64,000 nucleotides of DNA from Limnochordaceae bacterium. GTDB lineage: Bacteria > Bacillota > Limnochordia > Limnochordales > Geochordaceae. The position numbers and the translations under genes are program-made. Positions 5,626 through 45,228 of the stretch are shown here, in pieces. Position 1 is the stretch's first letter, and the number at the start of each line of letters is the position of its first letter. The notes under the pieces were generated by a model that saw only the letters and a program-made list of their open reading frames with translations, had not been told where the DNA came from and searched no databases. The DNA is taken from NCBI GenBank assembly GCA_014896295.1, contig JADBKR010000007.1:124001-188000 (forward strand), given 5' to 3'.

Positions 5626-5999
5626 GGTGCCCCACTGCTCCTTCCGTGCGCAACCTGAAACTCCGTCCCGTAACCCGAAGCTCCGCCGGGCAGGGCCGCC
5701 ACCGGGCTGACCTGGCCTTTGCCCCCACACCCGCCTGCCGGGGAGCTCAGCCCACCCATCCCGGGCCGTCTCGAGGATCCCAGCTCCGGGCTTTCGCTCC
5801 CTCTCCGCCTGGCCCGCACAAAGGGGCCGGCGGGCAGGACTTACAGCTAAGCCGCGCCATGCTCGGTCGCCGCCGCCGGCCTCCTCGTGCCGGCCGGCGG
5901 CGGCGCCTTACGTGGGTCGCTTCGCCCGCGGCTGGCATCGACTTTCAGCCACAGACCCCGGGGCGGTACCTGCGTCTCCCAGTATAACGGCTCAGGGCC
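5626..5999 (-). other. 374-bp leader/intergenic region with a strong GC hairpin
   Basis: No gene seen. It contains a very stable stem-loop (arms CGCCGCCGGCC and GGCCGGCGGCG at about 5870-5905) with no U-run after it on either strand. It separates the stop of the peptide-binding protein gene from the start of the amino-acid-binding protein gene and should hold the promoter of the latter. I looked for T-box, lysine, glycine and cobalamin elements and found none convincing. Confidence 0.4.
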
Positions 6000-8538: not shown

Positions 8539-9549
8539 TCAGAATCGCACCCGTGGGTCGAGCAGCGGGTACGTCATGTCCACCAGCAAGTTGATCACCG
8601 AGATGAAGAGGGCGATGAAGACCACGCTGCCCTGGATGGCGGGGAAGTCCCGGTAGTCGATGCTCATGAGGAGATACCTGCCGATCCCGGGCCACGAGAA
8701 GACGGTCTCCGTCAGCACGGCGCCGGCCAGCAACAGCGCGAACTGCATGCCCACGACGGTGACGATGGGGATCATGGCGTTGCGCAGCGCGTGCACCCAG
8801 AGCACCCGGCGCTCCTCCAGGCCCTTGGCACGAGCGGTACGCACGTAGTCGGCGTCCAACACCTCGAGAAGGCGCGTGCGGCTCAAGCGGCCCACGACCC
8901 CGGAGAGCACCACGCCCAGCGTCACCGCCGGCAGCACCATGTGATGCAACGCGCTGCCCAGCGCCTGCCAGTCGCGCTCGAGCAGCGCGTCGAGCGCGTA
9001 GAAGCCCGTACGGGGCTCGAACAGCGCCGCCGTCACCGGGTCCAGCCGCCCGCCCACCGGAAACCAGTGGAGCCGCACGGCGAAGACCATCTGCAGCATC
9101 AGGCCGAACCAGAAGATGGGCATCGCGAAGAAGCCCACGTTGGCCAGGCGCATCGCATGGTCCGGAGCCCGGCCGGCCCGGGTGGCGGCCACCATCCCGC
9201 CGGCCAGCCCCAGCACGAAGGCGACCAGCATCCCCGAGACGGCCAGTTCCAGCGTGGCCGGGAACCGCTCGAGCAACTCCTGGATGACGGGTCTGCCGGT
9301 GCGGATGGACGTGCCGAAGTCTCCCCGGGCCACCTGCCCGAGGTAATCGACGTACTGAAGGAGCAACGGGCGGTCGAGCCCGAGCCGCTGGCGGTACTCC
9401 GCGATCACCTGCGGGCTGACGTTGCGGCCTCCCAGCATGGCGAGCACCGGGTCGCCCGGCATCACCCGCAGGATCAGGAACATGATACTGACCAGGATCA
9501 GGATGATGGGAACGGCAAGGCCCAGGCGCATCAACACGTATCGGGCCAA
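8539..9549 (-). CDS. Peptide-type ABC transporter permease (DppB-like)
   Basis: 336 residues from a TTG start at 9549 (MARYVLMRLGLAVPI), chosen because GGGAGGAGG lies nine bases upstream; the frame is open further but the extra 57 residues are Arg/Pro-rich and unlike the family. Motifs: IILILVSIMFLILRVMPGDP in the first helix, GDFGTSIRTGRPV, and the EAA region YVRTARAKGLEERRVLWVHA. First gene of the cassette; its promoter region abuts the divergent TPP riboswitch. Confidence 0.93.
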   Translation of the reverse strand: MARYVLMRLGLAVPIILILVSIMFLILRVMPGDPVLAMLGGRNVSPQVIAEYRQRLGLDRPLLLQYVDYLGQVARGDFGTSIRTGRPVIQELLERFPATLELAVSGMLVAFVLGLAGGMVAATRAGRAPDHAMRLANVGFFAMPIFWFGLMLQMVFAVRLHWFPVGGRLDPVTAALFEPRTGFYALDALLERDWQALGSALHHMVLPAVTLGVVLSGVVGRLSRTRLLEVLDADYVRTARAKGLEERRVLWVHALRNAMIPIVTVVGMQFALLLAGAVLTETVFSWPGIGRYLLMSIDYRDFPAIQGSVVFIALFISVINLLVDMTYPLLDPRVRF

Positions 9550-9717
9550 AAGGGGCGGCCTCCTCCCTCGGCGTTGGGGCCGATTTCGCCGTGGCCGCGG
9601 GCGCCCCCTGCTGCGCCCAGGTCTCGACGCGCGAAGGCGGAAGGGAATCGGATGCCGGCACCGAATCACCCCATCGGGTTTAGGATCCGTTCCGAGCATC
9701 CAGGGTTTCCGGCGAGC

Positions 9718-9834
9718 CACTGGGGGAGCCAGGTGCGCTGAGACTCGGGGCGCCTCTGCGACGCCGGCAGGCCGGCGGCAGGGGGTCCCGGGACCCCTCG
9801 GACCTGATCAGGGTAATGCCTGCGGAGGGAAGGG
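9718..9834 (+). promoter_or_regulatory. TPP (THI-box) riboswitch
   Basis: All conserved TPP-aptamer blocks are present in order: GGGGGAGCC at 9722-9730, GCGCTGAGACTC (the pyrimidine-sensing CUGAGA block) at 9735-9746, a variable GC-rich P3 extension, ACCCCTCGGACCTGATCAGG, and GGTAATGCCTGCGGAGGGA closing P1. It lies upstream of a ThiT transporter gene, so it should shut off uptake when thiamin pyrophosphate is plentiful. Confidence 0.95.
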
Positions 9835-9861
9835 GCCGCCGCTGGGGTTACGTCCTCTGGT

Positions 9862-9895
9862 CGGCCATCGCCTGCCTGTGCGCAAGCGATGGCCG
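9862..9895 (+). terminator. Probable riboswitch expression-platform terminator
   Basis: A perfect 10-bp stem (CGGCCATCGC at 9862-9871 and GCGATGGCCG at 9886-9895) about 30 bases after the TPP aptamer, followed by the U-containing stretch TCGTGTCTTC. Likely forms when the ligand is bound and stops transcription before thiT. Confidence 0.6.
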
Positions 9896-9992
9896 TCGTG
9901 TCTTCAGGCGCGTGAGGGGCACCCTCCGCTCCCTGCCTGCTTCGGCAGAAGTCGGCCGCCGGGCCGGCTGGGAAGGGGGTGCACTTCGCATC

Positions 9993-10547
9993 ATGCAGCA
10001 ACGAGCCGGGGTGTCGTCCTACTGGACCCGCCGGACTCCCACCCATCTGGTGGCCGAAGGCGGCATCGCGGTGGCCCTCTCTGTGGCGCTGAGCGCTCTC
10101 AAGCTCTTCCAGATGCCGCAGGGAGGCTCCGTCTCCCTCGAGATGGTGCCGCTTTTCATCCTCGCGGCGCGCTGGGGCGTCTGGCCGGGGATCGTCGCCG
10201 GTGCGGCCTCAGGGCTCCTGCAGATGGCGTTCGGCGGCTACGTCGTGCACTGGGCGCAAGCGCTGCTCGACTATCCGGTGGCGTTCGGCGTGCTGGGGAT
10301 AGCGGGCGCGTTTCGCTCGCCCGAGTGGGGCGTGGCGGCCGGTTCGCTGGGGAGGCTCGCAGCGCACTGGCTGTCGGGGATCGTCTTCTTCGCCAGCTAT
10401 GCGCCGGCCGGGCAGCCGGTGGCCCTCTACTCCCTCGTCTACAACGTGACCTACCTCGTCCCCGAGGCCGTGGTCACCGTGGTGGTCGTCTGGGCGCTGC
10501 GCACCCGCACGGAGCTGTTCCGCCGGGTGGCCCTGCCGGCAGCGTGA
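9993..10547 (+). CDS. thiT: Energy-coupled thiamin transporter substrate-binding subunit ThiT
   Basis: 184 residues from ATG at 9993 (MQQRAGVSSYW); the frame is open 59 codons further but that part overlaps the riboswitch and its terminator. ThiT is the membrane S-component that captures thiamin for an ECF transporter. Typical features: LVAEGGIAVALSVALSALKL, then GGSVSLEMVPLFILAARWG, the block WGVWPGIVAGAASGLLQ, ending in YNVTYLVPEAVVTVVVVWAL. Six hydrophobic segments are expected. The EcfA/EcfA'/EcfT energising module is not in this window. The upstream TPP riboswitch fixes the substrate class with good confidence. Confidence 0.93.
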   Translation: MQQRAGVSSYWTRRTPTHLVAEGGIAVALSVALSALKLFQMPQGGSVSLEMVPLFILAARWGVWPGIVAGAASGLLQMAFGGYVVHWAQALLDYPVAFGVLGIAGAFRSPEWGVAAGSLGRLAAHWLSGIVFFASYAPAGQPVALYSLVYNVTYLVPEAVVTVVVVWALRTRTELFRRVALPAA

Positions 10548-10620
10548 ACGTGAGGGGCCGGGGCGGCCTGCAGCCTTGCAGGTGCTCCCGGCCCTGCCGT
10601 TTCGTGGTCTTTGCGCACGC

Positions 10621-11151
10621 TCAGCCTTGCGGCGCGGCGCCCCCCTCCGCCGCCGGGCGGGAGGCCGCGGGCGCCGCCTGGGCAACCCCGGTCGTCCCGC
10701 TGCCGGGCGCAGCCCCATGAACGGCGGGCTCTTCCAGCGTCACGCGGTAGGTGAGCCGGGTGCCGGCTTTGAGCGTGGCCGCCACCGAGCAGTACTTCTC
10801 GAAGGAGAGCCGGGCCGCGTCTTCCACCGGCTTACGGGGCAACGCGCTCCCCCGCACCACGTACTCGATCTCGATGGCGGTGTACCGGCGCGGGTGCTCG
10901 GGCGCCCGCTCGCCGTGGATCCGCAGCTCCACCCCCGTGAAGGGCACGCGCTTTTTGTGCAGGATGCTCACCACGTCCATCCCGGTGCATCCCCCGAGCG
11001 CGATGAGCAGCATCTCCATGGGGCCGGGAGCCCGCTGGGGCTCGTCGCTTCCCGGCTCGTGGCCGTCCATGACGGTGAAGTGACCCGACGGCCCGTAGCC
11101 CACGAAGGCCATGCCTCCTGCGTGACGCACGACCACGTCCATCGCTGCCAA
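10621..11151 (-). CDS. OsmC/Ohr family protein
   Basis: 176 residues. The family reduces organic hydroperoxides using two reactive cysteines, and both are present: C55 in ALGGCTGMDVVSIL and C121 in SFEKYCSVAATL. The N-terminal strand (MDVVVRHAGGMAFVGYG) and FTGVELRIHGERAPEHPRRY match the YhfA/OsmC branch. The last 30 residues are an Ala/Pro-rich tail. It starts 12 bases after the P-type ATPase stop, so the two are probably one transcript. Confidence 0.9.
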   Translation of the reverse strand: MAAMDVVVRHAGGMAFVGYGPSGHFTVMDGHEPGSDEPQRAPGPMEMLLIALGGCTGMDVVSILHKKRVPFTGVELRIHGERAPEHPRRYTAIEIEYVVRGSALPRKPVEDAARLSFEKYCSVAATLKAGTRLTYRVTLEEPAVHGAAPGSGTTGVAQAAPAASRPAAEGGAAPQG

Positions 11152-11163
11152 TGCAAGCCCTCC

Positions 11164-14046
11164 TCATTCGTGCGCGACCCGGCGGCGGGCGACCGCCCGT
11201 TCCACCGCCTTCACTGCCTCTACTATCGGGATCGGGGCGAAGGCCGCGAGCAGGATGCCTTCCCACTCGGGACCGTTGAGGGGCGTGACCCCGAACACGC
11301 CGGCCAGGGGCGGCCACAGGAGCACCACCAACTCGAGGGCGGCCGAGATAGCGAACGCGCCGAGCAGCCACCGGTTGGACAGCGGCCCGACCTGCACGAG
11401 CGACTGGCGGCTCGACCGGATGTTGAACGCGTGCGCCAGCTGGGACAGGGCGAGCGTCGCAAAGGCCGCCGTCCGGGCCCGCTCGATGCCGTGCCCCTCG
11501 CTCAGCACCCACGAGTAGACGGCCAGCGTGAGCGCACCCAGCATGAGCCCCTGGTAGGCGTCTCGCCACGCCATGCCGCCGGCGAAGACGCCCTCCCCGC
11601 GCCGGCGCGGCGGCCGCTCCATGAGGCCCGGCTCGGGCGGGTCCACGCCGAGCGCCAGCGCGGGCAGCCCGTCCGTCACCAGGTTGACCCACAAGATCTG
11701 GATGGCGGTGAGCGGGCGCCCCAGGCCGAGGAGGATCGCCCCGAAGATGGTCACGATCTCCCCCAGGTTGCACGAGAGCAGGTAGTGCACGAACTTCTTG
11801 ATGTTCTCGAAGATGGTCCGGCCTTCGGAGACCGCGGCCACCACCGTCGCGAAGTTGTCGTCGGCCAGCACCATGTCGGCCGCTCCCTTGGCGACGTCCG
11901 TGCCCGTGATGCCCATGGCCGCCCCGATGTCGGCCCGTTGCAGCGCCGGGGCGTCGTTGACCCCGTCTCCCGTGACGGCCACCACGTGCCCTCGTCGCCT
12001 GAGCGCCTCGACCACCCGCAGCTTGTGCTCCGGCGTGACCCGGGCGTACACGTCGACGTCCTCGACGACCCTCTCGAGATCCTCGTCGCTCATCCGGTCG
12101 AGCTCCACGCCCGTCAGCACCCGGGCCGTGCCGCCGGAGCGCATCAGCCCCACCTGGCTTGCGATGGCGGTGGCCGTGTCCCGGTGGTCTCCCGTGATCA
12201 TGATCGGCCGCACTCCGGCCCTGCGGCTGACCCGCACCGCCTCGGCCACCTCCGGCCGCGGGGGGTCGATGAGACCCACCAGCCCCAGCAGCACCAGTGC
12301 CTGCTCGGCCACCTCTTCTCTCATGGGCTCGAGGGGGACCTGCAGGGGCCGCACCGCCACGGCCAGGACCCGCAGCGCGTCACGGGCCATCGCCGCGTTG
12401 GCCTCCATCACCTCCTGCCTGGCCTGCTCGTCGAGCGGTTCCACCCGCCCTCCCCGGAGGATGGCCTGGCAGCGGCTCAGCACCGACTCCGGACTGCCCT
12501 TGGTGAAGAGCAGGTAAGGCGCGCCCGCCAGCAGCTCGGGCCCCGGCCACGCGAGACTCCCCCGCCCGGCGCCGCGGGTCAGCGTGGCGCTCAGCGCGCC
12601 GTCGCCGGCGGCCGCCACCTCGTCGCCCGGCGAGGGCTCTTCCGCTGGGGGCGCGTTGCGGTGCAGGGTGGACATGCGCTTGCGCCGGGACTCGAAGGGC
12701 ACCTCGCCGATGCGGGGAAAGCGCCGGTGCTCGTCTTCCGGCCAGAAACCGGCCCGGGCGGCCGCGGCCAGGATGGCCGTCTCGGTGGGATCCCCCACGG
12801 CCCGCCAGCCCCGCTCCTCTTCCAGGCGCTCCAGCCGGCCGTCGTTGACCAGCGAACCGCCCCGCAGTACCCACTCGAGCGCGGCAGCAGCAGCGGGATC
12901 GAGGCTCTGCCACACCCCGGACTGCCGGGCGGCGGGCCCGCCGGGCCGGCTCTCCTGCCCCAGCCCCCTCAGGTCCACGACGACGCCCTCGATCCACGCC
13001 CGCACCGCTTCCATGCGGTTTTGGGTGATGGTGCCGGTCTTGTCCGAGGCGATGACCGTCGCCGCCCCCAGGGTCTCCACGGCAGGCAGGCGGCGGACGA
13101 TGGCCTGGCGCGCCGCCATCCGCTGCACGCCCAGGGCCAGCACGATGGTCACGATGGCCGGCAGGCCCTCCGGGATGGCCGCCACGGCCAGGCTCACCGC
13201 CGTCATGAACATGTCGAGCAGCGGCTCGCCCCGGGCCAGGCCCACCGCGAACACGACGACGACCACGCCGAGCGCGATCCCGCCGAGCACCTTGCCGAGC
13301 TCGGCCAGCCGCCTCTGCAGCGGCGTCGGCTCCGGCTCCTCCTGGCGAAGGTACGCGGCGATCCGCCCCATCTCCGTCTGCAGCCCGGTGCCGACCACCA
13401 CGCCGACGCCCCGGCCGTAGGTGATGACCGTGCCCATGTAAAGGAGATTGGTCCGGTCGGCCACCGCCGTCTCCGGCGGGAGCACCTGGGCGGCCTCCTT
13501 GCTGACGGGCACCGACTCTCCCGTGAGCGGAGCCTCGTCGGCCTGCAGGTTGGCCGCCTCGACCAGGCGCAGGTCCGCGGGCACCCGTGAGCCGGCCTCG
13601 ACCAGCACCACGTCGCCGGGGACGAGCTCTCGAGCGTTGACGTCCACGAGGTGGCCGCCTCGCAAGACCCGGGCGTTGGGGTGCATCAGTTCCCTGAGGG
13701 CGGCCAGGGCATGCTCGGCGCGGTTTTCCTGGGTGACGCCGAGCACGGCGTTGAGGATCACGATGGCCAGGATGACGAAGGCGTCGGACCACTCGCCGAG
13801 CGCCACCGAGATCACGGCGGCTGCGATGAGGATGAGGACGAGCGGCTCCCGGATCTGGTCCCACGCCATGGCCCAGATGGTACGCCCGGGCGCCTCCGGG
13901 ATGGCGTTGGGGCCGAAACGCCTCAGCCGGGCCTCGACTTCGGTAGGGGAGAGACCCCGTTGGGGGTCCGTCTCCAGGCGACGACACGCTTCTTCAGGAG
14001 CCAGGGCATGCCACGGGGTCGACGGGGCGGGGGCGGCGTCACCCAC
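11164..14046 (-). CDS. P-type cation-transporting ATPase, calcium (P2A) type
   Basis: 960 residues, normal length for bacterial P2A pumps. N-terminal cation-ATPase domain (WHALAPEEACRRLETDPQRG), the actuator motif LTGES, the M4 motif AAIPEGLPAIVTIVLALGVQ that includes the ion-binding Pro-Glu-Gly, the phosphorylated DKTGTITQNRM near residue 335, and the hinge TGDGVNDAPAL. The C-terminal six-helix cation ATPase domain is complete. Most likely exports Ca2+ (possibly Mn2+) from the cytoplasm. Followed by the osmC-like gene. Confidence 0.94.
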   Translation of the reverse strand: MGDAAPAPSTPWHALAPEEACRRLETDPQRGLSPTEVEARLRRFGPNAIPEAPGRTIWAMAWDQIREPLVLILIAAAVISVALGEWSDAFVILAIVILNAVLGVTQENRAEHALAALRELMHPNARVLRGGHLVDVNARELVPGDVVLVEAGSRVPADLRLVEAANLQADEAPLTGESVPVSKEAAQVLPPETAVADRTNLLYMGTVITYGRGVGVVVGTGLQTEMGRIAAYLRQEEPEPTPLQRRLAELGKVLGGIALGVVVVVFAVGLARGEPLLDMFMTAVSLAVAAIPEGLPAIVTIVLALGVQRMAARQAIVRRLPAVETLGAATVIASDKTGTITQNRMEAVRAWIEGVVVDLRGLGQESRPGGPAARQSGVWQSLDPAAAAALEWVLRGGSLVNDGRLERLEEERGWRAVGDPTETAILAAAARAGFWPEDEHRRFPRIGEVPFESRRKRMSTLHRNAPPAEEPSPGDEVAAAGDGALSATLTRGAGRGSLAWPGPELLAGAPYLLFTKGSPESVLSRCQAILRGGRVEPLDEQARQEVMEANAAMARDALRVLAVAVRPLQVPLEPMREEVAEQALVLLGLVGLIDPPRPEVAEAVRVSRRAGVRPIMITGDHRDTATAIASQVGLMRSGGTARVLTGVELDRMSDEDLERVVEDVDVYARVTPEHKLRVVEALRRRGHVVAVTGDGVNDAPALQRADIGAAMGITGTDVAKGAADMVLADDNFATVVAAVSEGRTIFENIKKFVHYLLSCNLGEIVTIFGAILLGLGRPLTAIQILWVNLVTDGLPALALGVDPPEPGLMERPPRRRGEGVFAGGMAWRDAYQGLMLGALTLAVYSWVLSEGHGIERARTAAFATLALSQLAHAFNIRSSRQSLVQVGPLSNRWLLGAFAISAALELVVLLWPPLAGVFGVTPLNGPEWEGILLAAFAPIPIVEAVKAVERAVARRRVAHE

Positions 14047-34674: not shown

Positions 34675-34775
34675 GGAGGGACATGGGCTCCTGGTGGGCC
34701 CCGAGGGCTTCAAACCCTTCGGGAGGGGCGCATGTTGCGTCTCTCGGTGGGTTCGATTCCCACGTCCTTCCGCCA
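34675..34775 (+). tRNA. selC: tRNA-Sec (anticodon TCA)
   Basis: 101 bases including an encoded CCA end. The eight-pair acceptor stem (GGAGGGAC with GTCCTTCC, one G-U pair) and the long extra arm are typical of bacterial tRNA-Sec. Anticodon TCA sits at 34710-34712 in the loop CTTCAAA. The T arm GGTGGGTTCGATTCCCAC is standard, and discriminator is G. It lies nine bases from the 3' end of the convergent formate dehydrogenase gene. Confidence 0.96.
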
Positions 34776-35678: not shown

Positions 35679-37626
35679 TCACCTCCGCACGAGGCTGGCC
35701 AGCGCGTTGGGGGCAAGCTGCCCGAGCCCGCAGATCGAGCTGTCCCGCATCACCCGGGCGAGGTCGTCGAAGAGGGCCCGCAGGGCACCGTCCACCCGGC
35801 CGCCCTGCCGGCGGATGGCCCGGACCAGTTCCCACTGGCGGCGGGTGCCCACCCGGCAGGGTACGCACTGGCCGCACGACTCTTCTTGGAAGAAGCGGGC
35901 GATGCGCTCGGCCACCTCCCACAGATCGGCCGTCTCGTCCAGCGCCACCAGAGCTCCCGAGCCTACGGTGCCGCCGATGGCCTGCAGGGTCTCGAAGGCC
36001 AGGGGCGTGTCGAGCTCCTCGGGGAAAAGGAACGTGCCGGCCGCGCCTCCGCACAGGACGGCCTGGATGCGCCGGCCCCCGGATGCACCGCCGGCCAGCT
36101 CCTCCAGGATGGCCCGGATGGGGGTGCCGAAGGGCACCTCGTACAGCCCCGGCACCGCCACGTCCCCGCTCACCGAGACCAGCTTGGTGCCGGCCGAGCG
36201 GGCCGTGCCGAGCGCGCCGTACCACTCCCCGCCCCGCAGCAAGATGGGCACGACGGAGGCCAGCGTCTCCACGTTGTGGATGACGGTGGGCCGGCCGAAG
36301 AGCCCCCGCTGGGTCGGGAAGGGCGGCCGTGCCCTCGGCTCGCCGCGCAGGCCTTCGATGGAGTTGAAGAGGGCCGTCTCTTCTCCACACACGTAGGCTC
36401 CGGCGCCCCTGCGCACCTCCACGTCGAAGCTCCAGTCGCCTCCCAGCAGGTGGTGCCCGAGGTACCCTCGTGCCCTCGCCTCCTCGACGGCCCGCCGTAT
36501 GGAGCGGTACGCATCGGGGTACTCGCCGCGCACATAGATCCAGCCCCGTTCGGCCCCCGTGGCAAAGGCGGCGATGGTCATGCCCTCGAGCACGGCGAAC
36601 GGGTCGAGCTCGAGCAGCACCCGATCCTTGAACGTGCCGGGTTCGCTCTCGTCCGCGTTGCAGACCACGTACCGGGGCCCCGGCTCCCGGGCCACGGCCG
36701 CCCACTTGCGGGAGGACGGGAAGGCAGCGCCGCCTCGCCCCAGGAGACGGGCCCTTTCGACCTCGGCCATGGCCCACTTCGGGACCCAGCTCACGGGCGC
36801 GTCGTAACGCCTGATACCCGCCCCGGGCGAGATACGCGTCGAGGGTGGTCGCACCGCCCGAGAGCACCCGCTCGAGCAGCAGGGGCGTGGCCTCTCCCAT
36901 GCAGCCGGCGCGCGGGCCGGGGATGCCGGGCGAGCCACCGGAGAGCAGCGGCGCCCCGGCCGTCGCACCGTCCTGCCCACCTCTTGCTCCTTCCGGACGC
37001 CTGGCCGCCTCCAGGCCTCGCAGGCCTGCCTCCAGCCCCTCCGGGGTCAACTCCCCCCACACCTCGTCGCCGGCCAGCGCGGCAGGCGCCCGGTCGCACT
37101 GGCCCAGGCACGGCGAAAAAGCCCACCCGACGGAAGCGGCGGCGCCCGGCGAGGCCCCGTCGCCGTGCGAGCCGGACAGGCGGGCCGAGCCCGGCAGGCC
37201 GCGAAGCTCCCCATGCTCCGGACCGTGCAGCGGTGGGCCCAGGCGCTCGCGCAAGCGGGCGGCCAGCCGGTCCGCCCCCCGGCGCATGCACGCCACGTCG
37301 TCGCACAGGTGGACGATGTGCCGCGGGCCCGGCTCGGTGCGAAGGAGCGCGTAAAAGGCAGCAACGCCGTAGGCGTCCGCAAGCGGCACGCCGAGCTCCC
37401 GGCACACCGCCGCCAGGGCCGGATACGAGACCCACCCCCTGGCGCGCTGGAGCGCCTGCAGCGCCGGCAGCAGCAAATCGCGGCGGCCCCTGCGGCTCTC
37501 CGGAGCGACCTCGCCCCACACCTCCTGGAGCGCCACGGCCTCCTCGGGCTCCGGATCGGGCACCCGCTCCAGCCGGGAGAGGTCCACCCTGCTCCCCGGC
37601 GCCGGCGCGACCGGGCCCTGGCTCAC
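35679..37626 (-). CDS. NuoE-NuoF fusion, NAD(P)/FMN-binding subunit of formate dehydrogenase, one frame break
   Basis: GTG start at 37626 overlaps the TGA of the catalytic gene (GTGA). Residues to about 190 are NuoE-like: LPALQALQRARGWVSYPALA, VHLCDDVACMRRGAD, FSPCLGQCDRAPA (2Fe-2S cysteines). A NuoF part follows: GRGGAAFPSSRKW, VVCNADESEPGTFKDRVLLE, GAGAYVCGEETALFNSIEG, and the 4Fe-4S motif ESCGQCVPCRVGTRR. The frame changes near 36779 (ELGPE then WAMAEVERAR); removing one A gives 648 residues. It passes electrons from formate to NAD+, FMN first. The first Cys pair of the NuoE 2Fe-2S motif appears as a single Cys (CDDVAC counts one pair). Confidence 0.9.
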
Positions 37627-39551
37627 GCCCCCACCTCCTCCCGCACGGGCTCGATGCAGACCGCCGTCGCCTTGAACTCCGCGGTCCCCGCCTTCGGGTC
37701 CGTGGCGTCGATGGTCAAGCGGTTGGTGGCCACCTGTTCGGGCGAATGCAACGTCAGGAAGACGAGGCCGGGCTGCACCACCCGGCTCAGCGCCGCCCGC
37801 ACGTTCACCTCGCCCCTGCGGGAAGAGACCCGCACCCACTGCCCGTCGTTCACGCCGAGGCGGGCCGCGTCGTCGGGATGGATCAACAGCCGCTCCTCAT
37901 GGCCCCACGGAACGGCATACTGGGCCGTCTGCACGCCCGTATTGAACTGTTCGAGCCTCCGCCCCGTGGTGAGCACGAACGGGTAGCCGGCGTCGGGTCG
38001 TTCGACCGGCGGCGCCCACTCGACCGGCACGAACCGCGCCCGGGGCCCCTCGACCGGGCGTTTCCAGAGGCGAGCGTGCAGGAACGTCTCCCCCGGGTGG
38101 TCTTCCGAGGGACACGGCCACTGCAGGCCGTTCATCGCCTCCAGCCGCCGGTAGCTCATGCCGCGGTGGATGGGCGAGAGGCTGCGCAGTTCGTTCCAGA
38201 CATCCTCGGCGCCGGCGTAGTGCCAGTCGAAGCCCATCCGCCGGGCCACCATCTGCAGGATCTCGATGTCGTCGCGGGCCTCGCCCGGAGGATCGAGCGC
38301 CTTTCGCACCCGCCGGACGCGGCGTTCGCTCGAGGTGACGGTCCCTTCCGTCTCGCACCATCCGGCCGCCGCCGGCAGCACCACGTCGGCCAGCTCCCCG
38401 GTGGCCGTCAGGAAGATGTCCTGCACGACGAGAAAGTCCAGCTCTTCGAACAGCCGCTTCACCCGCTCGCCGTTGGCCTCGGAGCGCACCGGGTTTTCGC
38501 CGACCACGTACATGGCCCGGATGACCCCTTCTTCCATGGCCTCCAGCATGGCCGTCTGGTGCAGCCCGGGCTCCGGCGGGATGGTGCAGCCCCACGCCTG
38601 CTCGAAGCGCTGCCGCACGGCGGGATCCGTGAGATCCTGAAACCCCGGCAGGCGGTTGGGCAGGGCGCCCATGTCGCCTCCGCCCTGCACGTTGTTCTGG
38701 CCGCGCAAGGGGTTGAGGCCGGAGCCGTAGCGCCCGACGTGGCCGGTGAGAAGCGCCAGGTCGATGAGGGCGAAGACGTTGTCGGTGGCGTTGTGGTGCT
38801 CGGTGATGCCGAGCGTCCAGGCGATCATCGCCCGCGGCGCGGTGGCGTAGGCGATGGCCGTCTCCCGGATGAGCGCCGCCGGCACGCCCGTGATCGCCTC
38901 CGCCCGCTCCAGGGTGTATGGCTCGACCGAGCGGCGGTACGCCTCGAAGCCGTCGGTCGCCGCCTCGATGAACTCGCGGTGGGCCAGGTCTTCTTCGATG
39001 ATGACCCGGCCCATGGCGTTGGCCAGCGCGACGTCGGCGCCGACCCGGACGGGCAGCCACCGGTGGGCGTACGCGACGCTGGCCGTCCTCCTCGGGTCGA
39101 TGACGAACAGGCGCGTTCCCCGGCGCACCCCTTGGAGCATGTGCAAGAACATGACCGGGTGCGTCTCCCGGGCATTGGAACCCCAGAGGAGCAGGACGTC
39201 CGTCTCCTCCATCTCGCGGTACGAGTTGGTACCGCCTCCAGCTCCGAAGACGGTCGCCAGACCGGCGACGCTCGGAGCGTGTCAGGTGCGGTTACAGCTG
39301 TCGACGTTGTTGGAACCCATCACCTGCCGGGTGAACTTCCCTGCCAGGTAATTGAGCTCGTTGGTCGCCTTGGACGAACTGAAAAAGCCGAACGCCCGCC
39401 CGCCGTAACGCTGCCGCACGCGGGAAAGGGCGCCGGCCACCACCTCGATCGCCTCGTCCCAGCCGGCCCGCACCAGGCGCCCGTTGCGCCGCACGAGCGG
39501 GGCGAGCAACCGCTGTCCCATGGGGACGACCGCTCCTGCTGCCGTCGCCAC
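37623..39551 (-). CDS. Formate dehydrogenase catalytic half with selenocysteine (UGA at 39282-39284)
   Basis: 642 residues from GTG at 39551 with GGGAGG nine bases upstream. It begins after the N-terminal 4Fe-4S domain would have ended: LLAPLVRRNGRLVRAGWDEA. The in-frame TGA at codon 90 stands in the conserved context DSCNRT-U-HAPSVAGLATVF, exactly where FDH-H-type enzymes carry selenocysteine. Then LLLWGSNARETHPVMFLHML, IAWTLGITEHHNATDNVFAL, RGQNNVQGGGDMGALPN and the C-terminal molydopterin dinucleotide domain (LTTGRRLEQFNTGVQT). No signal peptide, so cytoplasmic. First gene of a three-gene operon whose last gene encodes the missing Fe-S half. Confidence 0.93.
39241..39278 (-). promoter_or_regulatory. 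SECIS-like hairpin in cytoplasmic formate dehydrogenase mRNA
   Basis: Three bases after UGA: outer stem GCTCCGA with TCGGAGC, inner stem TCGCC with GGCGA, apical loop GGTCT. The GGUCU loop resembles that of the E. coli fdhF SECIS. Confidence 0.8.
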
Positions 39552-39612
39552 CGTCGACCGCCTCCCATCCGGCGGAGAAAGAAAGGGAGACATCGTCATC
39601 ACTACTCTGAGC

Positions 39613-39618
39613 ATTATA
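39613..39618 (-). promoter_or_regulatory. -10 box of the formate dehydrogenase operon
   Basis: A perfect TATAAT reading the minus strand, about 60 bases before the chosen GTG start. No good -35 is visible at 17 bases (AGGTCC), which suggests an activator-dependent promoter. Confidence 0.5.
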
Positions 39619-39676
39619 CGGTTTCCCGGCGAGAGGACCTGCCCCTCGACCGTCCGTGGGCGGCAACTTTTGCGGC

Positions 39677-39704
39677 TTGCCATTGTGCCCACGATTGCTA
39701 TACG
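39677..39704 (+). promoter_or_regulatory. Promoter for lytS-lytTR
   Basis: TTGCCA, 16-base spacer, TATACG, about 40 bases before the GTG start of the kinase. Confidence 0.5.
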
Positions 39705-39743
39705 CTCCCTGGAAAACCCACCGGGCGGGGGTACGAGCCGGGC

Positions 39744-40859
39744 GTGGGCCGGTCCCAGACCGACGCGCTGGAGCTTCTGCTGCAGGCGCTGCCGCTGCTC
39801 AGGGGTGGCCTGACCCCCCAGTCGGCGGCCAAGGCGGCGCGACTTCTGCGCAACCGCCTGCACGTGGATGCGGCGGCCGTGGTCGACACGGAGGCCGTGC
39901 TCGCCTTCGAGGGCGCCGGCGCCGACCATCACCGCGCCGGCGATCCCATCGGCACCAGGCTCACCCGCCGGGCCCTCGCGACCGGCAGGCCGGCTCTGGC
40001 CACCACCCGCGAGGCCATCGGATGCAGCGTCCCTTCCTGCCCGCTGGGGTCGGCCCTGGTGCTCCCTTTGCGCGTACAGGGACGGGTGGTGGGCGCCGTC
40101 AAGCTTTACCAGGCGCGCCCGCGCCGCATGGGGCAGAGCAAGGTGCGGGCCGCCCGCGCCGTGGCCCGCCTCTTCAGCGTCTACCTGGAGCTGGCCGAGC
40201 TCGATGCCCGGGCCGCCCGGGTGACCCAGGCCGAGCTCGAAGCCCTGCGTGCCCAGATCTCGCCCCATTTCCTGTTCAACACCCTCAATACCATCGCGGC
40301 CCTCATCCGCGTCGACCCGCAGCGGGCCCACACTCTGGTCATCCGCTTCGCGGAGTTCTTCCGGGAGACCCTGGCCCAGCACGGCGAGGTCGCGACCCTC
40401 GAGGACGAAGTGCTGTACGTGCAGCAGTACCTGGCGTTCGAGGAGGCGCGCCTCGGCCAGCGGCTCACGGTGGAGTGGGACATGGAGCCCCAGGCCAGGC
40501 GGGCCGTGCTGCCCGTCCTGGTCATCCAGCCGCTGGTCGAAAACGCCATCATCCACGGGATCGAGCCGTGCCCCCGCCCCGGACGGGTACGGATCGTCGC
40601 GGTCTCGGAGCGGGGCGGCTATCGCATCCGGGTGGAGGACAACGGGGCCGGCATCCCCGCCGACCGGCTCCCCTATATCCTGGAGCGGGGTTACGGTACG
40701 GGCCTCGGGATGGGGCTCAGCAACGTGGACGCGAGGCTCAAGAGCTTCTTCGGGCCCGGAAGCGGGCTGCGCATCCACAGCCTGGTGGGCGAGGGCACCA
40801 CGGTAGAGTTTTGGATCCCGTCGACCCCGGCCAGGCCGCAGGCCCTGGCCCACACGTAG
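39744..40859 (+). CDS. LytS-type sensor histidine kinase
   Basis: 371 residues from GTG at 39744; the frame is open far upstream but that is antisense to the formate dehydrogenase genes. The N-terminal half is a soluble GAF-like sensor (AAAVVDTEAVLAFEGAGADH, then CSVPSCPLGSALVLPLRVQG), with no membrane segment. The kinase part has the phospho-acceptor motif ISPHFLFNTLNTIAALIRVD near residue 175, VIQPLVENAIIHGIEP (N box), VEDNGAGIPADRL and GLGMGLSNVDARL. It resembles BtsS/YpdA-type kinases that pair with LytTR regulators, here encoded 22 bases on. The C-P-S-C region in the sensor could bind a ligand or metal. Immediately upstream of RuBisCO genes. Confidence 0.92.
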   Translation: MGRSQTDALELLLQALPLLRGGLTPQSAAKAARLLRNRLHVDAAAVVDTEAVLAFEGAGADHHRAGDPIGTRLTRRALATGRPALATTREAIGCSVPSCPLGSALVLPLRVQGRVVGAVKLYQARPRRMGQSKVRAARAVARLFSVYLELAELDARAARVTQAELEALRAQISPHFLFNTLNTIAALIRVDPQRAHTLVIRFAEFFRETLAQHGEVATLEDEVLYVQQYLAFEEARLGQRLTVEWDMEPQARRAVLPVLVIQPLVENAIIHGIEPCPRPGRVRIVAVSERGGYRIRVEDNGAGIPADRLPYILERGYGTGLGMGLSNVDARLKSFFGPGSGLRIHSLVGEGTTVEFWIPSTPARPQALAHT

Positions 40860-40881
40860 ACGCAAGGGGGTGTGGTCGTCC

Positions 40882-41604
40882 GTGGGTTTGTCCGCCCTCA
40901 TCGTGGACGACGAGCAACCGGCCCGGCTGGAGCTGGCCCATCTCCTGCAGCAGGTGACGCCCGTCGACACCCTGGACGAGGCCGGCACCATGGTGGACGC
41001 GCTGGCCCGGCTGCAGGAGAAGCGTTACGACCTCGTCTTCCTCGACATCCGGATGCCGGGCGTCTCGGGGCTGGAGGCGATGCAGGTCATCAACCGTCTG
41101 CCCGATCCTCCGCCCGTCATCTTCGTCACGGCCTACGACGAGCACGCCCTGGCTGCCTTCGAGGTCGGCGCCAGGGATTACCTGCTCAAGCCGGTCTCCG
41201 AGGCGCGCCTGCGGCTCACGCTGGGGCGGTTGCTGGACCGTCGCCGGGAAAACGGCCTCGCCCGGGTGGCCCACGACCGGCTCCCCGTCGAACAGGAAGG
41301 GCACACGCGTCTCGTGCGGGTGGCGGACATCCGGTTCATCCACGTGCGGGGCCACACGGTCTACGTCCGCACCTTCGACGCCGAGTGGGCCAGCCGCGCC
41401 TCCCTCGCCGAACTGGCCGACCGGCTGGCGCCGCAGGGTTTCGTGCGGGTGCACCGGGCCTACCTCGTCAACCCCGAACACGTCCTCGAAGTCCATCCTT
41501 TCTTCGCGGGCACCTACATCCTGCGCATGGACGACCGGGGCAACAGCGAGGTGCCGGTGAGCCGTTCGTCGGCCCGGCTGGTCCGGGAGATCTTCGGGCT
41601 GTAG
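40882..41604 (+). CDS. LytTR-family response regulator
   Basis: About 240 residues from GTG at 40882 ([20 protein letters not shown]); a GTG at 40870 is possible. Receiver domain with phospho-acceptor Asp in [16 protein letters not shown] and the switch residues [17 protein letters not shown] and LLKP. The C-terminal LytTR DNA-binding domain includes [38 protein letters not shown] and [17 protein letters not shown]. LytTR proteins bind pairs of 9-bp direct repeats spaced by 12-13 bp, and such a pair lies 20 bp after the gene, before cbbL. Confidence 0.95.
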
Positions 41605-41624
41605 CCGCGCATCCCCGATCGCCG

Positions 41625-41654
41625 ACCGTTCGGGACGGGGTCTTTACCGTTCGG
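41625..41654 (+). promoter_or_regulatory. LytTR-type direct repeats upstream of cbbL
   Basis: ACCGTTCGG at 41625-41633 and again at 41646-41654, separated by 12 bases. Both match the published LytTR consensus [TA][AC][CA]GTTN[AG][TG] at every position, and the identity extends to 12 bases (ACCGTTCGGGAC). They lie about 75-100 bp before the cbbL start. Confidence 0.75.
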
Positions 41655-41726
41655 GACAGCATCATAGAAGCCCGGCGGTCGACCCGCTACGCTGGAAGAC
41701 GACGACGGCGGGAGGCGACCGAGGAG

Positions 41727-43187
41727 ATGGGAGAGACCAACGGGCAGGTAAGCCGTCTGTTCGACGCCGGGGTCAAGGATTACAGCGACGCGACCCGCTA
41801 CTACTATGATCCGGATTACGTCCCGGCCGAGACGGACGTGCTGTGCGCCTTTCGGGTGACGCCGCAGCCGGGCGTGTCCTTCAAAGAGGCCGCGGCGTCG
41901 GTCGCGGCGGAGTCCTCGTCCGGGACGTGGACGACGGTCTGGACCGATCACCTCACCGATTTGAGCCGCTATTCGGCCCGCTGTTACCGTATCGAGCCGG
42001 TGCCGGGGCGGGATGACCAGTTCATCGCCTACATCGCCTATCCCATGGACCTCTTCGAGGAGGGGTCCGTGGTCAACATGATGTCCTCCATCGTAGGCAA
42101 CGTCTTCGGGTTCAAGGCCATCCGGGCGCTGCGCCTGGAGGATGTCCGGGTGCCGGTCGCGTACCTCAAGACGTTCCAGGGACCTCCCCACGGCATCGTG
42201 GTGGAGCGAGACCGCCTCAACAAGTACGGGCGGCCGCTGCTCGGCGCGACCATCAAGCCCAAGCTGGGCCTTTCCGCCAAGAACTACGGGCGTGCCGTCT
42301 ATGAGTCGCTGCGCGGAGGTCTCGATTTCACCAAGGACGACGAAAACGTCAACTCCCAACCGTTCATGCGGTGGAGGGACCGTTTCCTCTTCGTCATGGA
42401 AGCGGTCCACAAGGCCGAATCGGAGACCGGTGAGCGCAAGGGCCACTACCTCAACGTCACGGCGCCCACGTTCGAACAGATGATCGAGCGGGCGGAGACG
42501 GCCCGGGAGCTCGGGTCGCGGATCATCATGGTCGACTTCCTCACCGCCGGCTTCGCGGCCCATACGTCCCTCTCCCACTGGTGCCGCAAACACGGCGTGC
42601 TCCTCCACTGCCACCGGGCGATGCACGCCGTGATCGACCGCCAGCGCGACCACGGCATCCACTGGCGGGTACTGGCCAAGTGGGCCCGGATGGCGGGGTG
42701 CGACCACCTCCACAACGGCACCGTGGTCGGCAAGCTCGAGGGCGACCGGCAGTCGACGCTCGGGGTCAACGATTTGCTGCGGCTCGACGACGTGCCGCAA
42801 GACCGGTCGAGGGGCATCTACTTCGACCAGCCGTGGGCGTCGCTCGCCCCGGTCATGCCTGTTGCGTCCGGTGGCATCCACGTCTGGCACATGCCGGAGC
42901 TCGTCCACCTCTTCGGGGATGACGCGGTGCTCCAGTTCGGCGGGGGCACCCTCGGCCACCCGTGGGGGAGCGCTGCCGGCGCCACCGCCAACCGCGTCGC
43001 GCTGGAAGCGGTGGTGCAGGCCCGCAACGCCGGCCGCGACCTGCTCGAAGAAGGGCCGGCCATCTTGAAGCAAGCGGCTCGCCGCTCCCCGGAGCTGCAG
43101 CTCGCGCTCGAAACATGGCAGCAAGTGCGGTTCGACTACGACGTGGTCGACCGGCTCGACCCCGTCCACAGCGGGACGGAGGGGTAA
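41727..43187 (+). CDS. cbbL: Ribulose-1,5-bisphosphate carboxylase/oxygenase large subunit, form I (IC-like)
   Basis: 486 residues from ATG at 41727 with GGGAGG eleven bases upstream. Catalyses CO2 fixation onto ribulose bisphosphate. Active-site residues present: K177 in [11 protein letters not shown], the carbamylated K203 in [18 protein letters not shown]296-R297 in HCHRAMHAV, loop-6 K336 in [11 protein letters not shown]381 in [12 protein letters not shown], and [11 protein letters not shown]. The stretch [15 protein letters not shown] after loop 6 resembles form IC/ID (red-type) enzymes. Typical red-type variants need the activase CbbX, which is not seen here. Followed directly by cbbS. 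Confidence 0.97.
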
Positions 43188-43189
43188 GC

Positions 43190-43498
43190 ATGGCCCTTCG
43201 CACGGAGATGTTCTCGTACCTTCCGCCGATGCCGCCCGAAGAGGTGCGCCAGCAAGTCGAGTACCTCATTCGAAGAGGGTACGTGCCGGGCATTGAATTC
43301 ACGCAGAGGCTCGACTCGCACGACGACTTCTGGAGCTTTTGGAAGCTGCCCTTCTTCCGGGGTGCGACCGTCGACGGCGTCCTCGCCGAACTCGAAGCGT
43401 GCAAGACCGCCCATCCCGGCGCCACCATCCGGCTCACGGGCTACGATGCCCGGCGCCAGTGCCAGGTGCTGAGTTTCGTGGTCCATCGCCCGGCGTAG
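43190..43498 (+). CDS. cbbS: RuBisCO small subunit
   Basis: 102 residues, start ATG at 43190 two bases after the cbbL TAA with GGAGGGG upstream. Features: FSYLPPMPPEEVRQQVEYLI, GYVPGIEF, FWSFWKLPFFRGATVDGVLA, IRLTGYDARRQCQVLSFVVH. It assembles with the large subunit in L8S8 form I. It is at the short end for the family and lacks the long C-terminal beta-hairpin extension usual in red-type small subunits. Confidence 0.96.
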   Translation: MALRTEMFSYLPPMPPEEVRQQVEYLIRRGYVPGIEFTQRLDSHDDFWSFWKLPFFRGATVDGVLAELEACKTAHPGATIRLTGYDARRQCQVLSFVVHRPA

Positions 43499-43561
43499 CG
43501 CCGGAGCCTCGCACCTTTGTGACTCGTGCCTCTCCAGGCCCCCCGATGGGCCCCTGGGACA

Positions 43562-43593
43562 GCTGCATCGCCTGCCCCCCCAGGCGGTGCAGC
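43562..43593 (+). terminator. Terminator-like hairpin after cbbS
   Basis: A 13-bp stem (GCTGCATCGCCTG and CAGGCGGTGCAGC, one T-G pair) with a C6 loop, followed by GCGTTTGG. Short U-run. It suggests prk has its own promoter. Confidence 0.6.
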
Positions 43594-43670
43594 GCGTTTG
43601 GGGAGAGATGGGAGGCGTCGCGCCGGCCACCGGGGCGCCGGAGCCGGGGTGACCATCCGGCGCCGGGATG

Positions 43671-43700
43671 ACCGGTGGCGCCCGCTTTTCGACCGTTCAG
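43671..43700 (+). promoter_or_regulatory. Candidate LytTR site upstream of prk
   Basis: ACCGTTCAG at 43692-43700 matches the LytTR consensus fully, extended identity ACCGTTCaGGAC with the cbbL repeats. Exactly 21 bases upstream is the weaker copy ACCGGTGGC at 43671. Located about 70-95 bp before the prk start, as for cbbL. Confidence 0.55.
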
Positions 43701-43767
43701 GACAAAACGTTTGAATGCACCGTGGGGGCCCGATAGGTTGGTATTCAAAAGGAGGAGGTTCATCCCC

Positions 43768-44796
43768 ATGGCAGACACCGTCGAGCGGCCCATCCTCCTG
43801 GGCATAGGAGGCGACAGCGGCAGCGGCAAGACGACCATCGCCCGCGGCCTGTACCGGCTGTTCGGCGCCGGCAACATCCTGAGCATCTGCCTCGACGACT
43901 ATCACAGCCTCGATCGGAGAGCCCGCCAGCAAGCCGGAGTGACGGCCCTCAACCCGGTCGCCAACCGGATCGACCTCATGGAAGAGCAGCTATGGGCCCT
44001 CAAGGACGGCCGGAGCGTGCTCAAACCCGTCTACGATCATGCGACGGGGACGTTCGGCCCTCCGGAACAGATCCACCCGAAGCCCTGGATCGTCGTGCGG
44101 GGTCTGTTTCCCTTTTTCACGGAGCGGCTGCGGGAGGCGTTCGACGTCCGGGTCTGGCTCGACCCCGACGAAGAGCTCAAATACCACTGGAAAGTGCAGC
44201 GGGACGTCGCGCAGCGGGGCTATAGCGTCGCCCAGGTGATCCGCCAGGTGGTGGAGCGCCAGGACGACCTGCGCCGCTACATCTTACCCCAGGCCCGCTA
44301 CGCGGACATGGTCGTGCGCTTCTACCCCCCGCCCGGGTACTTCGGCAAGGCGGGCGCAGGCGGCTCGGCCGGCAACGGCCACGGCGCCGAGACGCCGCCC
44401 GACCTCCACGTGCGGCTGACGTTGCGGCGCAGCGCCCCAGCCCCCGGAGTCGCCGAAGCCATTGCGAGAGCGGCTGCGCTCGACCAGGAGCATCACGGTA
44501 CGCGCAGGGGTGCCGGCGGTGTACGGATACAGCGCGGCGCCGAGGGTGGGGAGACCATGGTCGAGGTCGATGCGGGCCTGGATGGACACGTGGCGGCACC
44601 GCTGGTGCGAGACCTGGCATCCATGTTGCCCATCGACCCCCGGGCGACGGAGGAGATGGGGGTCTTCCTCGCGGGCGGGCGCGACCCGAAGCACAGCCAT
44701 TCGCTCCTGATCACCCAGCTCGCCATCGCCTGGCAGATGGTCGCAGCTCACGAATCCACCCGTTCCCTGGTCACGGAGAGAGCCTCGCCGGCGTGA
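43768..44796 (+). CDS. prk: Phosphoribulokinase (class II-like)
   Basis: 342 residues from ATG at 43768, AAAGGAGGAGG nine bases upstream. Makes ribulose-1,5-bisphosphate for RuBisCO. P-loop GGDSGSGKTTIARG at residues 14-27, the ribulose phosphate region CLDDYHSLDRRARQQAGVTA and ANRIDLMEEQLWALKDG, and WKVQRDVAQRGYS. The order and the DDYHSLDR block resemble the class II (cyanobacterial-type) enzymes rather than proteobacterial class I. The usual Glu in the I-E-G-L-H-P motif is Arg here (VVRGLFPFF). A C-terminal extension (residues 250-342) follows. Own promoter region with LytTR-like repeats. Confidence 0.95.
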   Translation: MADTVERPILLGIGGDSGSGKTTIARGLYRLFGAGNILSICLDDYHSLDRRARQQAGVTALNPVANRIDLMEEQLWALKDGRSVLKPVYDHATGTFGPPEQIHPKPWIVVRGLFPFFTERLREAFDVRVWLDPDEELKYHWKVQRDVAQRGYSVAQVIRQVVERQDDLRRYILPQARYADMVVRFYPPPGYFGKAGAGGSAGNGHGAETPPDLHVRLTLRRSAPAPGVAEAIARAAALDQEHHGTRRGAGGVRIQRGAEGGETMVEVDAGLDGHVAAPLVRDLASMLPIDPRATEEMGVFLAGGRDPKHSHSLLITQLAIAWQMVAAHESTRSLVTERASPA

Positions 44797-45228
44797 GCCG
44801 GCGGGCTCCCGGGCCCGGGGACAGTCTCGATGTCGAGCCCTTCGCTCTCGGCGTGGCGACGGATCTTCCACGAAGGACGCTTTTCCTGGGCACGCTCAGA
44901 CCCATGTCGGCCCCTTTCGCGACCTACTCAGGCTTGGCGTGACAACACCTCGACATGGACGCGCCACCACGGGGACGTCACCAGGGACCGACCCACTCTC
45001 CAGAAAACCCCGCCGTGTCATGACTCCAAACCGAGCCGGGCTGGTGGTCCAGCTAATGAAGCGTCCCTGACACCGCGGGCCGAGCTGCGCACAGCGTCTT
45101 ATGCGTAATGAATGGCAGGACCATCCTTACCAACCGCCGAATACCTTTATCGGTCAGGGCCTTCTGGTTGGAGTCGCCCCATGGGATGGCCACGTGATGT
45201 GCGATGTCATCTGCAAAGGGGGTATCCC
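44797..45228 (+). other. 432-bp intergenic region before the metalloprotease
   Basis: No gene recognised. A small hairpin GAGCC/GGCTC directly after the prk stop may help end transcription. GC content begins to fall here. No known riboswitch or clear promoter was identified; a strong ribosome binding site AAAGGGGG lies before the next gene. Confidence 0.4.

Follow-up and report, generated by a model that had tools for sequence, protein, structure and literature searches.

A LytTR two-component system as the predicted switch of the Calvin-cycle genes in a Limnochordales bacterium

The stretch of DNA analyzed here (the window, 64,000 nucleotides) carries a LytS-type histidine kinase gene followed by a LytTR response regulator gene, cbbL, cbbS, and prk (Table 1), so that both RuBisCO subunits and phosphoribulokinase of the Calvin cycle are encoded together. 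The regulator has the phospho-acceptor motif FLDIRMPG and the DNA-contact motif FVRVHRA, the latter to be read against the FhRhHRS contact motif of LytTR proteins (PMC4227749). Whole-genome searches with PF04397 found a single LytTR protein in this genome and a single one in a second strain of the species.

Table 1. Coordinates of genes, repeats, and proposed promoter elements at the locus, with the promoter sequences of the Limnochorda pilosa-like genome
Feature	Position	Strand	Remarks
LytS-type histidine kinase, 371 aa	39744..40859	+	Pfam GAF, His_kinase (PF06580), and HATPase_c; predicted GTG start
LytTR response regulator, 244 aa	40870..41604	+	Pfam receiver PF00072 and LytTR PF04397, far above cut-offs
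Distal copy of direct repeat ACCGTTCGGGAC	41625..41636	+	9-mer core 41625-41633
Proximal copy of direct repeat ACCGTTCGGGAC	41646..41657	+	9-mer core 41646-41654
Proposed -35 of cbbL, TAGAAG	41665..41670	+	10 bp after repeat core; placed by the spacing in PMC6193735 Table 3; weak box
Proposed -10 of cbbL, TACGCT	41688..41693	+	17 bp after -35; placed by the register shared with prk and two L. pilosa-like promoters
cbbL, RuBisCO large subunit, 486 aa	41727..43187	+	PF00016/PF02788, NCBIfam
cbbS, RuBisCO small subunit, 102 aa	43190..43498	+	PF00101
Weak distal half-site of prk, ACCGGTGGC	43671..43679	+	period 21; when extended, 8/12 matches to ACCGTTCGGGAC
Proximal half-site of prk, ACCGTTCAGGAC	43692..43703	+	11/12 identical to the cbbL repeat
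Proposed -35 of prk, TTGAAT	43711..43716	+	10 bp after 9-mer core; placed by spacing
Proposed -10 of prk, TAGGTT	43734..43739	+	17 bp after -35; placed by spacing
prk, phosphoribulokinase, 342 aa	43768..44796	+	PF00485; above cut-off for the NCBIfam phosphoribulokinase subfamily
G004 promoters marked by GACGGTCTGAGACAG and GACGGCTTGAGCCAG			

The kinase has a LytS-type transmitter, with His_kinase (PF06580) and HATPase_c domains and the phospho-acceptor motif ISPHFLFN, together with a GAF domain. LytS-family kinases take their input through a five-transmembrane (5TM) membrane domain and GAF (PMC5552118). The window kinase gave no Pfam match to the 5TM-5TMR_LYT sensor, and hydropathy and alignment revealed no transmembrane segment in it or in its counterpart from the L. 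pilosa-like genome described below (G004), whereas seven relatives have one. Judged by its sequence, it is LytS-like but soluble, and falls short of a full LytS. Since the kinases linked to cbb genes lack the membrane part, they probably sense an intracellular signal through GAF, a domain that in these proteins bears a cysteine-CPL motif common to most of their relatives.

Divergent from the kinase gene lies a gene for a selenocysteine formate dehydrogenase alpha subunit (37623-39596, minus strand; in-frame TGA at 39282-39284, motif NVDSCNRTUHAPSV), followed by NuoF-like and ferredoxin-like subunits, and a tRNA-Sec gene is found close by (34675-34771, plus strand). The window also holds a raiA RNA motif (RF03072, 113.9 bits) at 5697-5965 on the minus strand.

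An earlier sequence-only reading had described two identical copies of ACCGTTCGG, separated by 12 bases and lying between the regulator gene and cbbL, as a perfect match to the LytTR consensus at the spacing known for the family. Sequence, placement, and spacing were all borne out: the first copy begins 20 bp past the end of the regulator gene, and the pair fits WMMGTTNRK-N12-WMMGTTNRK at every position. The exact repeat is longer than that reading gave, extending over 12 bases (ACCGTTCGGGAC) with a period of 21. The arrangement ACCGTTCGG-N12-ACCGTTCGG occurs only here in the window and never in 100 shuffles. For a random 122-bp stretch of window composition, the chance of a LytTR-consensus pair with a period of 20-22 is about 3e-5, and that of an exact direct repeat of at least 12 bases within 60 bp is about 1e-3. 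Across the 2.89-Mb genome, there is a single perfect consensus pair, the one before cbbL, and a complete second genome of the species (3.31 Mb) likewise has just one, in the same place; pairs with one mismatch are about as frequent as a reversed-pattern control in both genomes. The cbbL upstream region thus carries the operator form of LytTR response regulators, two direct repeats of about 9 bp with a spacer of 10-13 bp (PMC6193735, PMC11347149), upstream of a proposed -35.

In published LytTR-activated promoters, the 9-bp repeats are mostly separated by 12 bp, and the distance to the -35 is strongly biased towards 10 bp (PMC6193735 Table 3). At cbbL, the order is 9-bp repeat, 12 bp, 9-bp repeat, 10 bp, -35, 17 bp, and -10, and the spacing from the repeats to the proposed boxes is that of known LytTR-activated promoters (PMC6193735). 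The proposed -35 and -10 boxes are weak, with 3-4 of 6 positions matching. A generic sigma-70 scan of 39500-45150 found no strong promoter, which is consistent with weak, activator-dependent boxes but is not positive evidence for them.

A further candidate site, missed by the sequence-only reading, precedes prk, where ACCGGTGGC-12-ACCGTTCAG-10-TTGAAT-17-TAGGTT spans 43671-43739 and the predicted site pair occupies 43671-43700. The proximal half is clear and the distal half is weak; only the former stands out because the distal half-site also belongs to a GC-rich hairpin (43626-43679, energy z -1.9), being part of its stem. The cbbL and prk promoters align in a common register at 28 of 45 positions (P ~0.004). 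In both genomes of the species, the pattern from proximal repeat to -10 has exactly two perfect matches, at cbbL and prk; as the pattern was derived from these promoters, the result says no more than that other close copies are absent. Genome searches with ACCGTTCNGGAC, the consensus pair, and the repeat-to-minus-10 pattern yielded no additional regulon members above control counts beyond cbbL and prk. Other exact 12-mer matches, at L013 and L014, were dismissed as sites, having neither a partner repeat nor promoter-like spacing. The GC-rich hairpin in the gap between cbbS and prk is terminator- or attenuator-like (43626-43690, plus strand), with GCCACCGG...CCGGTGGC followed by GCCCGCTTTTC.

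To what extent these elements are conserved was judged from one direct close comparison, between two strains of one species, and from a more distant genome. The second strain is 97.7% identical to the window over 14 kb, with no substitution in the 33-bp cbbL repeat block or in the 48 bp that run from the prk proximal repeat through the -10, and with three substitutions in or next to the cbbL -35, which reads TGGAAG there and TAGAAG in the window. Genome G004 (L. pilosa-like and probably that species; 3,817,036 bp) encodes an orthologous kinase and regulator, 68-69% identical to those of the window (68-70% for the regulator, whose contact motif is hardly changed), in the order kinase, regulator, NuoF/FdhB-like gene, glpX, cbbL, cbbS, aldolase-like gene, and prk. 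The perfect LytTR repeat pair is absent from G004, where a diverged element occupies the same register. Conservation in relatives that keep the gene order, the check proposed with the sequence-only reading, gave a mixed outcome: it is complete within the species but limited to this diverged element in G004, despite the retained gene cluster.

In G004, the promoters of the fdhB-like gene and cbbL have a long element in common. With both pairs of promoters, from the window and from G004, slid against each other as 50-column blocks, the best register placed GACGGTCTGAGACAG over the proximal repeat ACCGTTCGGGACAG, with 96 of 200 matches against 78 for the next best and none of 5000 column shuffles reaching it (P < 1/5000). 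Alignments of single window-G004 promoter pairs were mostly not significant, and the two-by-two block test alone was clear; with a matrix derived from the acetyl-CoA synthetase (acs) promoters described below, the G004 half-sites rank only in the top 2-3%. We take this as a promoter type that would be conserved between the window species and G004, with half-sites that have drifted. Both G004 promoters (L037:9037-9110 and 11544-11615) also share a nearly identical 25-base TGCGCGAAAGTGGGCARAAGCACAG, at and after the proposed -10. It is longer than a promoter needs and may represent an additional regulator site or a recent duplication.

Outside Limnochordales, the nearest regulators are approximately 40-48% identical and the nearest kinases approximately 41-45%, and some of them lie beside acs or CstA genes, neighbors that were named from sequence reading and similarity. 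LytST pairs next to acs or cstA (L140, L143, L221-L229, L147) show at acs the same 9-12-9-10-(-35)-17-(-10) geometry as cbbL, as in ACCTTTAAG-12-ACCTTTGAC-10-TTTTCT-17-TAAGAT and, in another promoter, ACCGTTAAA-12-ACCTTTGGC-10-TTTATT-17-TAAGAT. They differ from the window in their gene neighbors, which relate to acetate and pyruvate, in kinases that have membrane segments, and in half-sites of ACCTTT/ACCGTT-like sequence that mostly lack the CGGGAC extension. Among 127,940 positions scored as period-21 pairs on both window strands, a matrix built from the acs half-sites placed cbbL at rank 11 and prk at rank 13, a test that is not wholly independent because the training sites were partly picked by likeness to the window motif.

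The acs promoters of L140, L141, L143, L220, L221, L223, L224, L226, L229, L230, and L239 carry ACC[GT]TT-type repeats followed by 10 bp, a -35, 17 bp, and often TAAGAT. This conserved operator at acs, found with many Bacillota LytST pairs, suggests that acetate activation is under a widespread LytTR switch.

The usual regulator of cbb genes was also sought. There was no match to PF03466 (LysR_substrate) in either genome of the species; no LysR-type regulator, and therefore no CbbR, was found, which sets the locus apart from CbbR-regulated cbb operons, whose genomes encode a LysR-type CbbR, usually next to the cbb genes themselves. Among 398 sampled genomes of the phylum, RbcS occurred only in the window species, G004, and two other genomes. 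No RuBisCO or PRK gene lay near related LytTR regulators at any of 80 loci, within at most 10 kb on each side and with many contigs shorter than that. One other Bacillota genome, G225, has a LysR-like gene (L194:7767-8672, plus strand) convergent with and abutting cbbS, its cbbLS lying at 8663-10796 on the minus strand; regulators of this type are more usual near cbb genes.

We propose that a LytS/LytTR two-component system, kin to acetate and pyruvate systems, has probably been recruited to activate cbbLS and prk. LytTR control of cbbL, as the sequence-only reading had suggested, gains support from the single LytTR protein, the adjoining and only perfect operator, the spacing to -35 and -10, the predicted prk site, the related layouts, and the lack of a LysR-type gene. 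The soluble GAF-domain kinase would sense an intracellular signal, presumably an internal metabolic or redox cue, and phosphorylate the regulator, two molecules of which would occupy 41625-41654 in head-to-tail orientation along one DNA face, the 21 bp corresponding to two helical turns. The bound regulator may then recruit RNA polymerase to the weak sigma-70-type promoter at 41665-41693 to turn on cbbLS, and the same regulator would activate prk from 43671-43700, giving a small regulon of two genes specific to the Calvin cycle.

Could the regulator instead bind the cbbL repeats mainly to repress? The LytTR protein CoxC represses the aerobic CO oxidation genes (PMC11347149), but its operator overlaps the -35, whereas at cbbL 10 bp separate the repeat from the proposed -35, and the boxes are weak; activated promoters typically show both features (PMC6193735). 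Because there is no such overlap at cbbL, and given that CoxC is a one-component protein with three repeats rather than a two-component system with two, we consider repression unlikely. The repeats might also owe nothing to regulation and reflect chance or a local duplication, as the window has three further sites with exact 12-base direct repeats within 60 bp. None of those three matches the LytTR consensus at the right period, and finding the consensus at this period next to the sole LytTR gene, together with a prk copy in register and full conservation, is jointly unexpected by chance, which makes an accidental origin the least credible of the alternatives.

Very improbable, too, is the idea that cbbL and prk answer to CbbR or some other regulator while the neighboring LytTR protein controls, for example, the divergent formate dehydrogenase. 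The orientation of the kinase gene relative to the selenocysteine formate dehydrogenase gene would fit such a division, as would G004, where the first gene after the regulator is NuoF/FdhB-like and has the same promoter element; CbbR is the usual cbb regulator, and a LysR-like gene does lie beside cbbLS in another Bacillota genome. Set against this, neither genome of the species yielded a LysR_substrate domain, and the intergenic region between the kinase and formate dehydrogenase genes has no LytTR pair, while good pairs are present at cbbL and prk.

Activation of cbbLS and prk by the LytTR regulator can be placed in a wider reading, which we favor somewhat over its negation. Here, a soluble GAF-only kinase and a LytTR regulator would read an intracellular metabolite or redox signal and form the sole dedicated Calvin-cycle switch in Limnochordales, acting on cbbLS and prk in the window species and on the fdhB-like gene and cbbL in G004. 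The pair would descend from LytST/BtsSR-type systems such as those that neighbor acetate and pyruvate genes elsewhere in the Bacillota, and would functionally replace CbbR, filling the role that CbbR has elsewhere.

Descriptions of transcriptional control of bacterial CO2 fixation have involved CbbR and, for some organisms, regulators of the RegA type, and the papers on cbb regulation that we found concern these two. The sequence-only reading considered LytTR control of cbb genes undescribed; in agreement, the open-licence literature yielded no relevant paper linking LytTR with RuBisCO or the Calvin cycle, an absence that is not proof. According to passages of PMC11456536, Carboxydochorda (NCBI: Carboxydichorda) subterranea, a member of Limnochordales related to Limnochorda pilosa, has formate dehydrogenase and the Calvin cycle, which supports its autotrophic growth on CO, H2, and formate; horizontal acquisition of the cycle is proposed there. 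The window genome fits this description and is probably that of this species or of a very close relative. Those passages discuss no Calvin-cycle regulator, and LytTR does not appear in the main text. If our interpretation is correct, a horizontally acquired Calvin cycle has been fitted with a regulator of the acetate/pyruvate-switch type where no LysR-type gene was found. The locus offers a compact, testable candidate operator and a soluble kinase, whose ligand is probably a central metabolite. The novelty would lie in a known regulator family acting on a target new to it, and in a kinase that lacks the membrane sensor.

Among known systems, CbbR also controls transcription of RuBisCO and PRK genes but is of the LysR type, and the search of the window genome gave no LysR_substrate protein. 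RegA/PrrA shares control of RuBisCO and PRK transcription with the proposed system, and RegA belongs to a class of response regulators other than the LytTR type, lacking a LytTR domain. In architecture, the window system resembles the pyruvate-responsive BtsS/BtsR and YpdA/YpdB of E. coli, each with a GAF, His_kinase, and HATPase kinase and a receiver-LytTR regulator. BtsR is the best NCBIfam relative of the window regulator, which at 162.5 bits lies below the cut-off of 246 for the BtsR equivalog PRK11697. The surface plasmon resonance (SPR) probe used for BtsR (YehT) contains ACCGCTTAC-12-ACCACTCAG (PMC4847170), with the same period and nearly the same half-site as in the window. The E. coli systems differ in that the window kinase lacks the 5TM domain, part of the LytS input (PMC5552118), and in that they target pyruvate transporters, whereas the predicted targets in the window are Calvin-cycle genes. 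LytTR control of chemolithotrophy genes has a precedent in CoxC and RcoM, regulators of the cox genes for aerobic CO oxidation with direct repeats 12-13 bp apart (PMC11347149). Like the proposed system, these place a LytTR domain over chemolithotrophy genes through spaced direct repeats, but they are one-component CO sensors, with an MHYT membrane domain or heme, that use three 8-bp TTCNNGCA-like repeats and act on cox.
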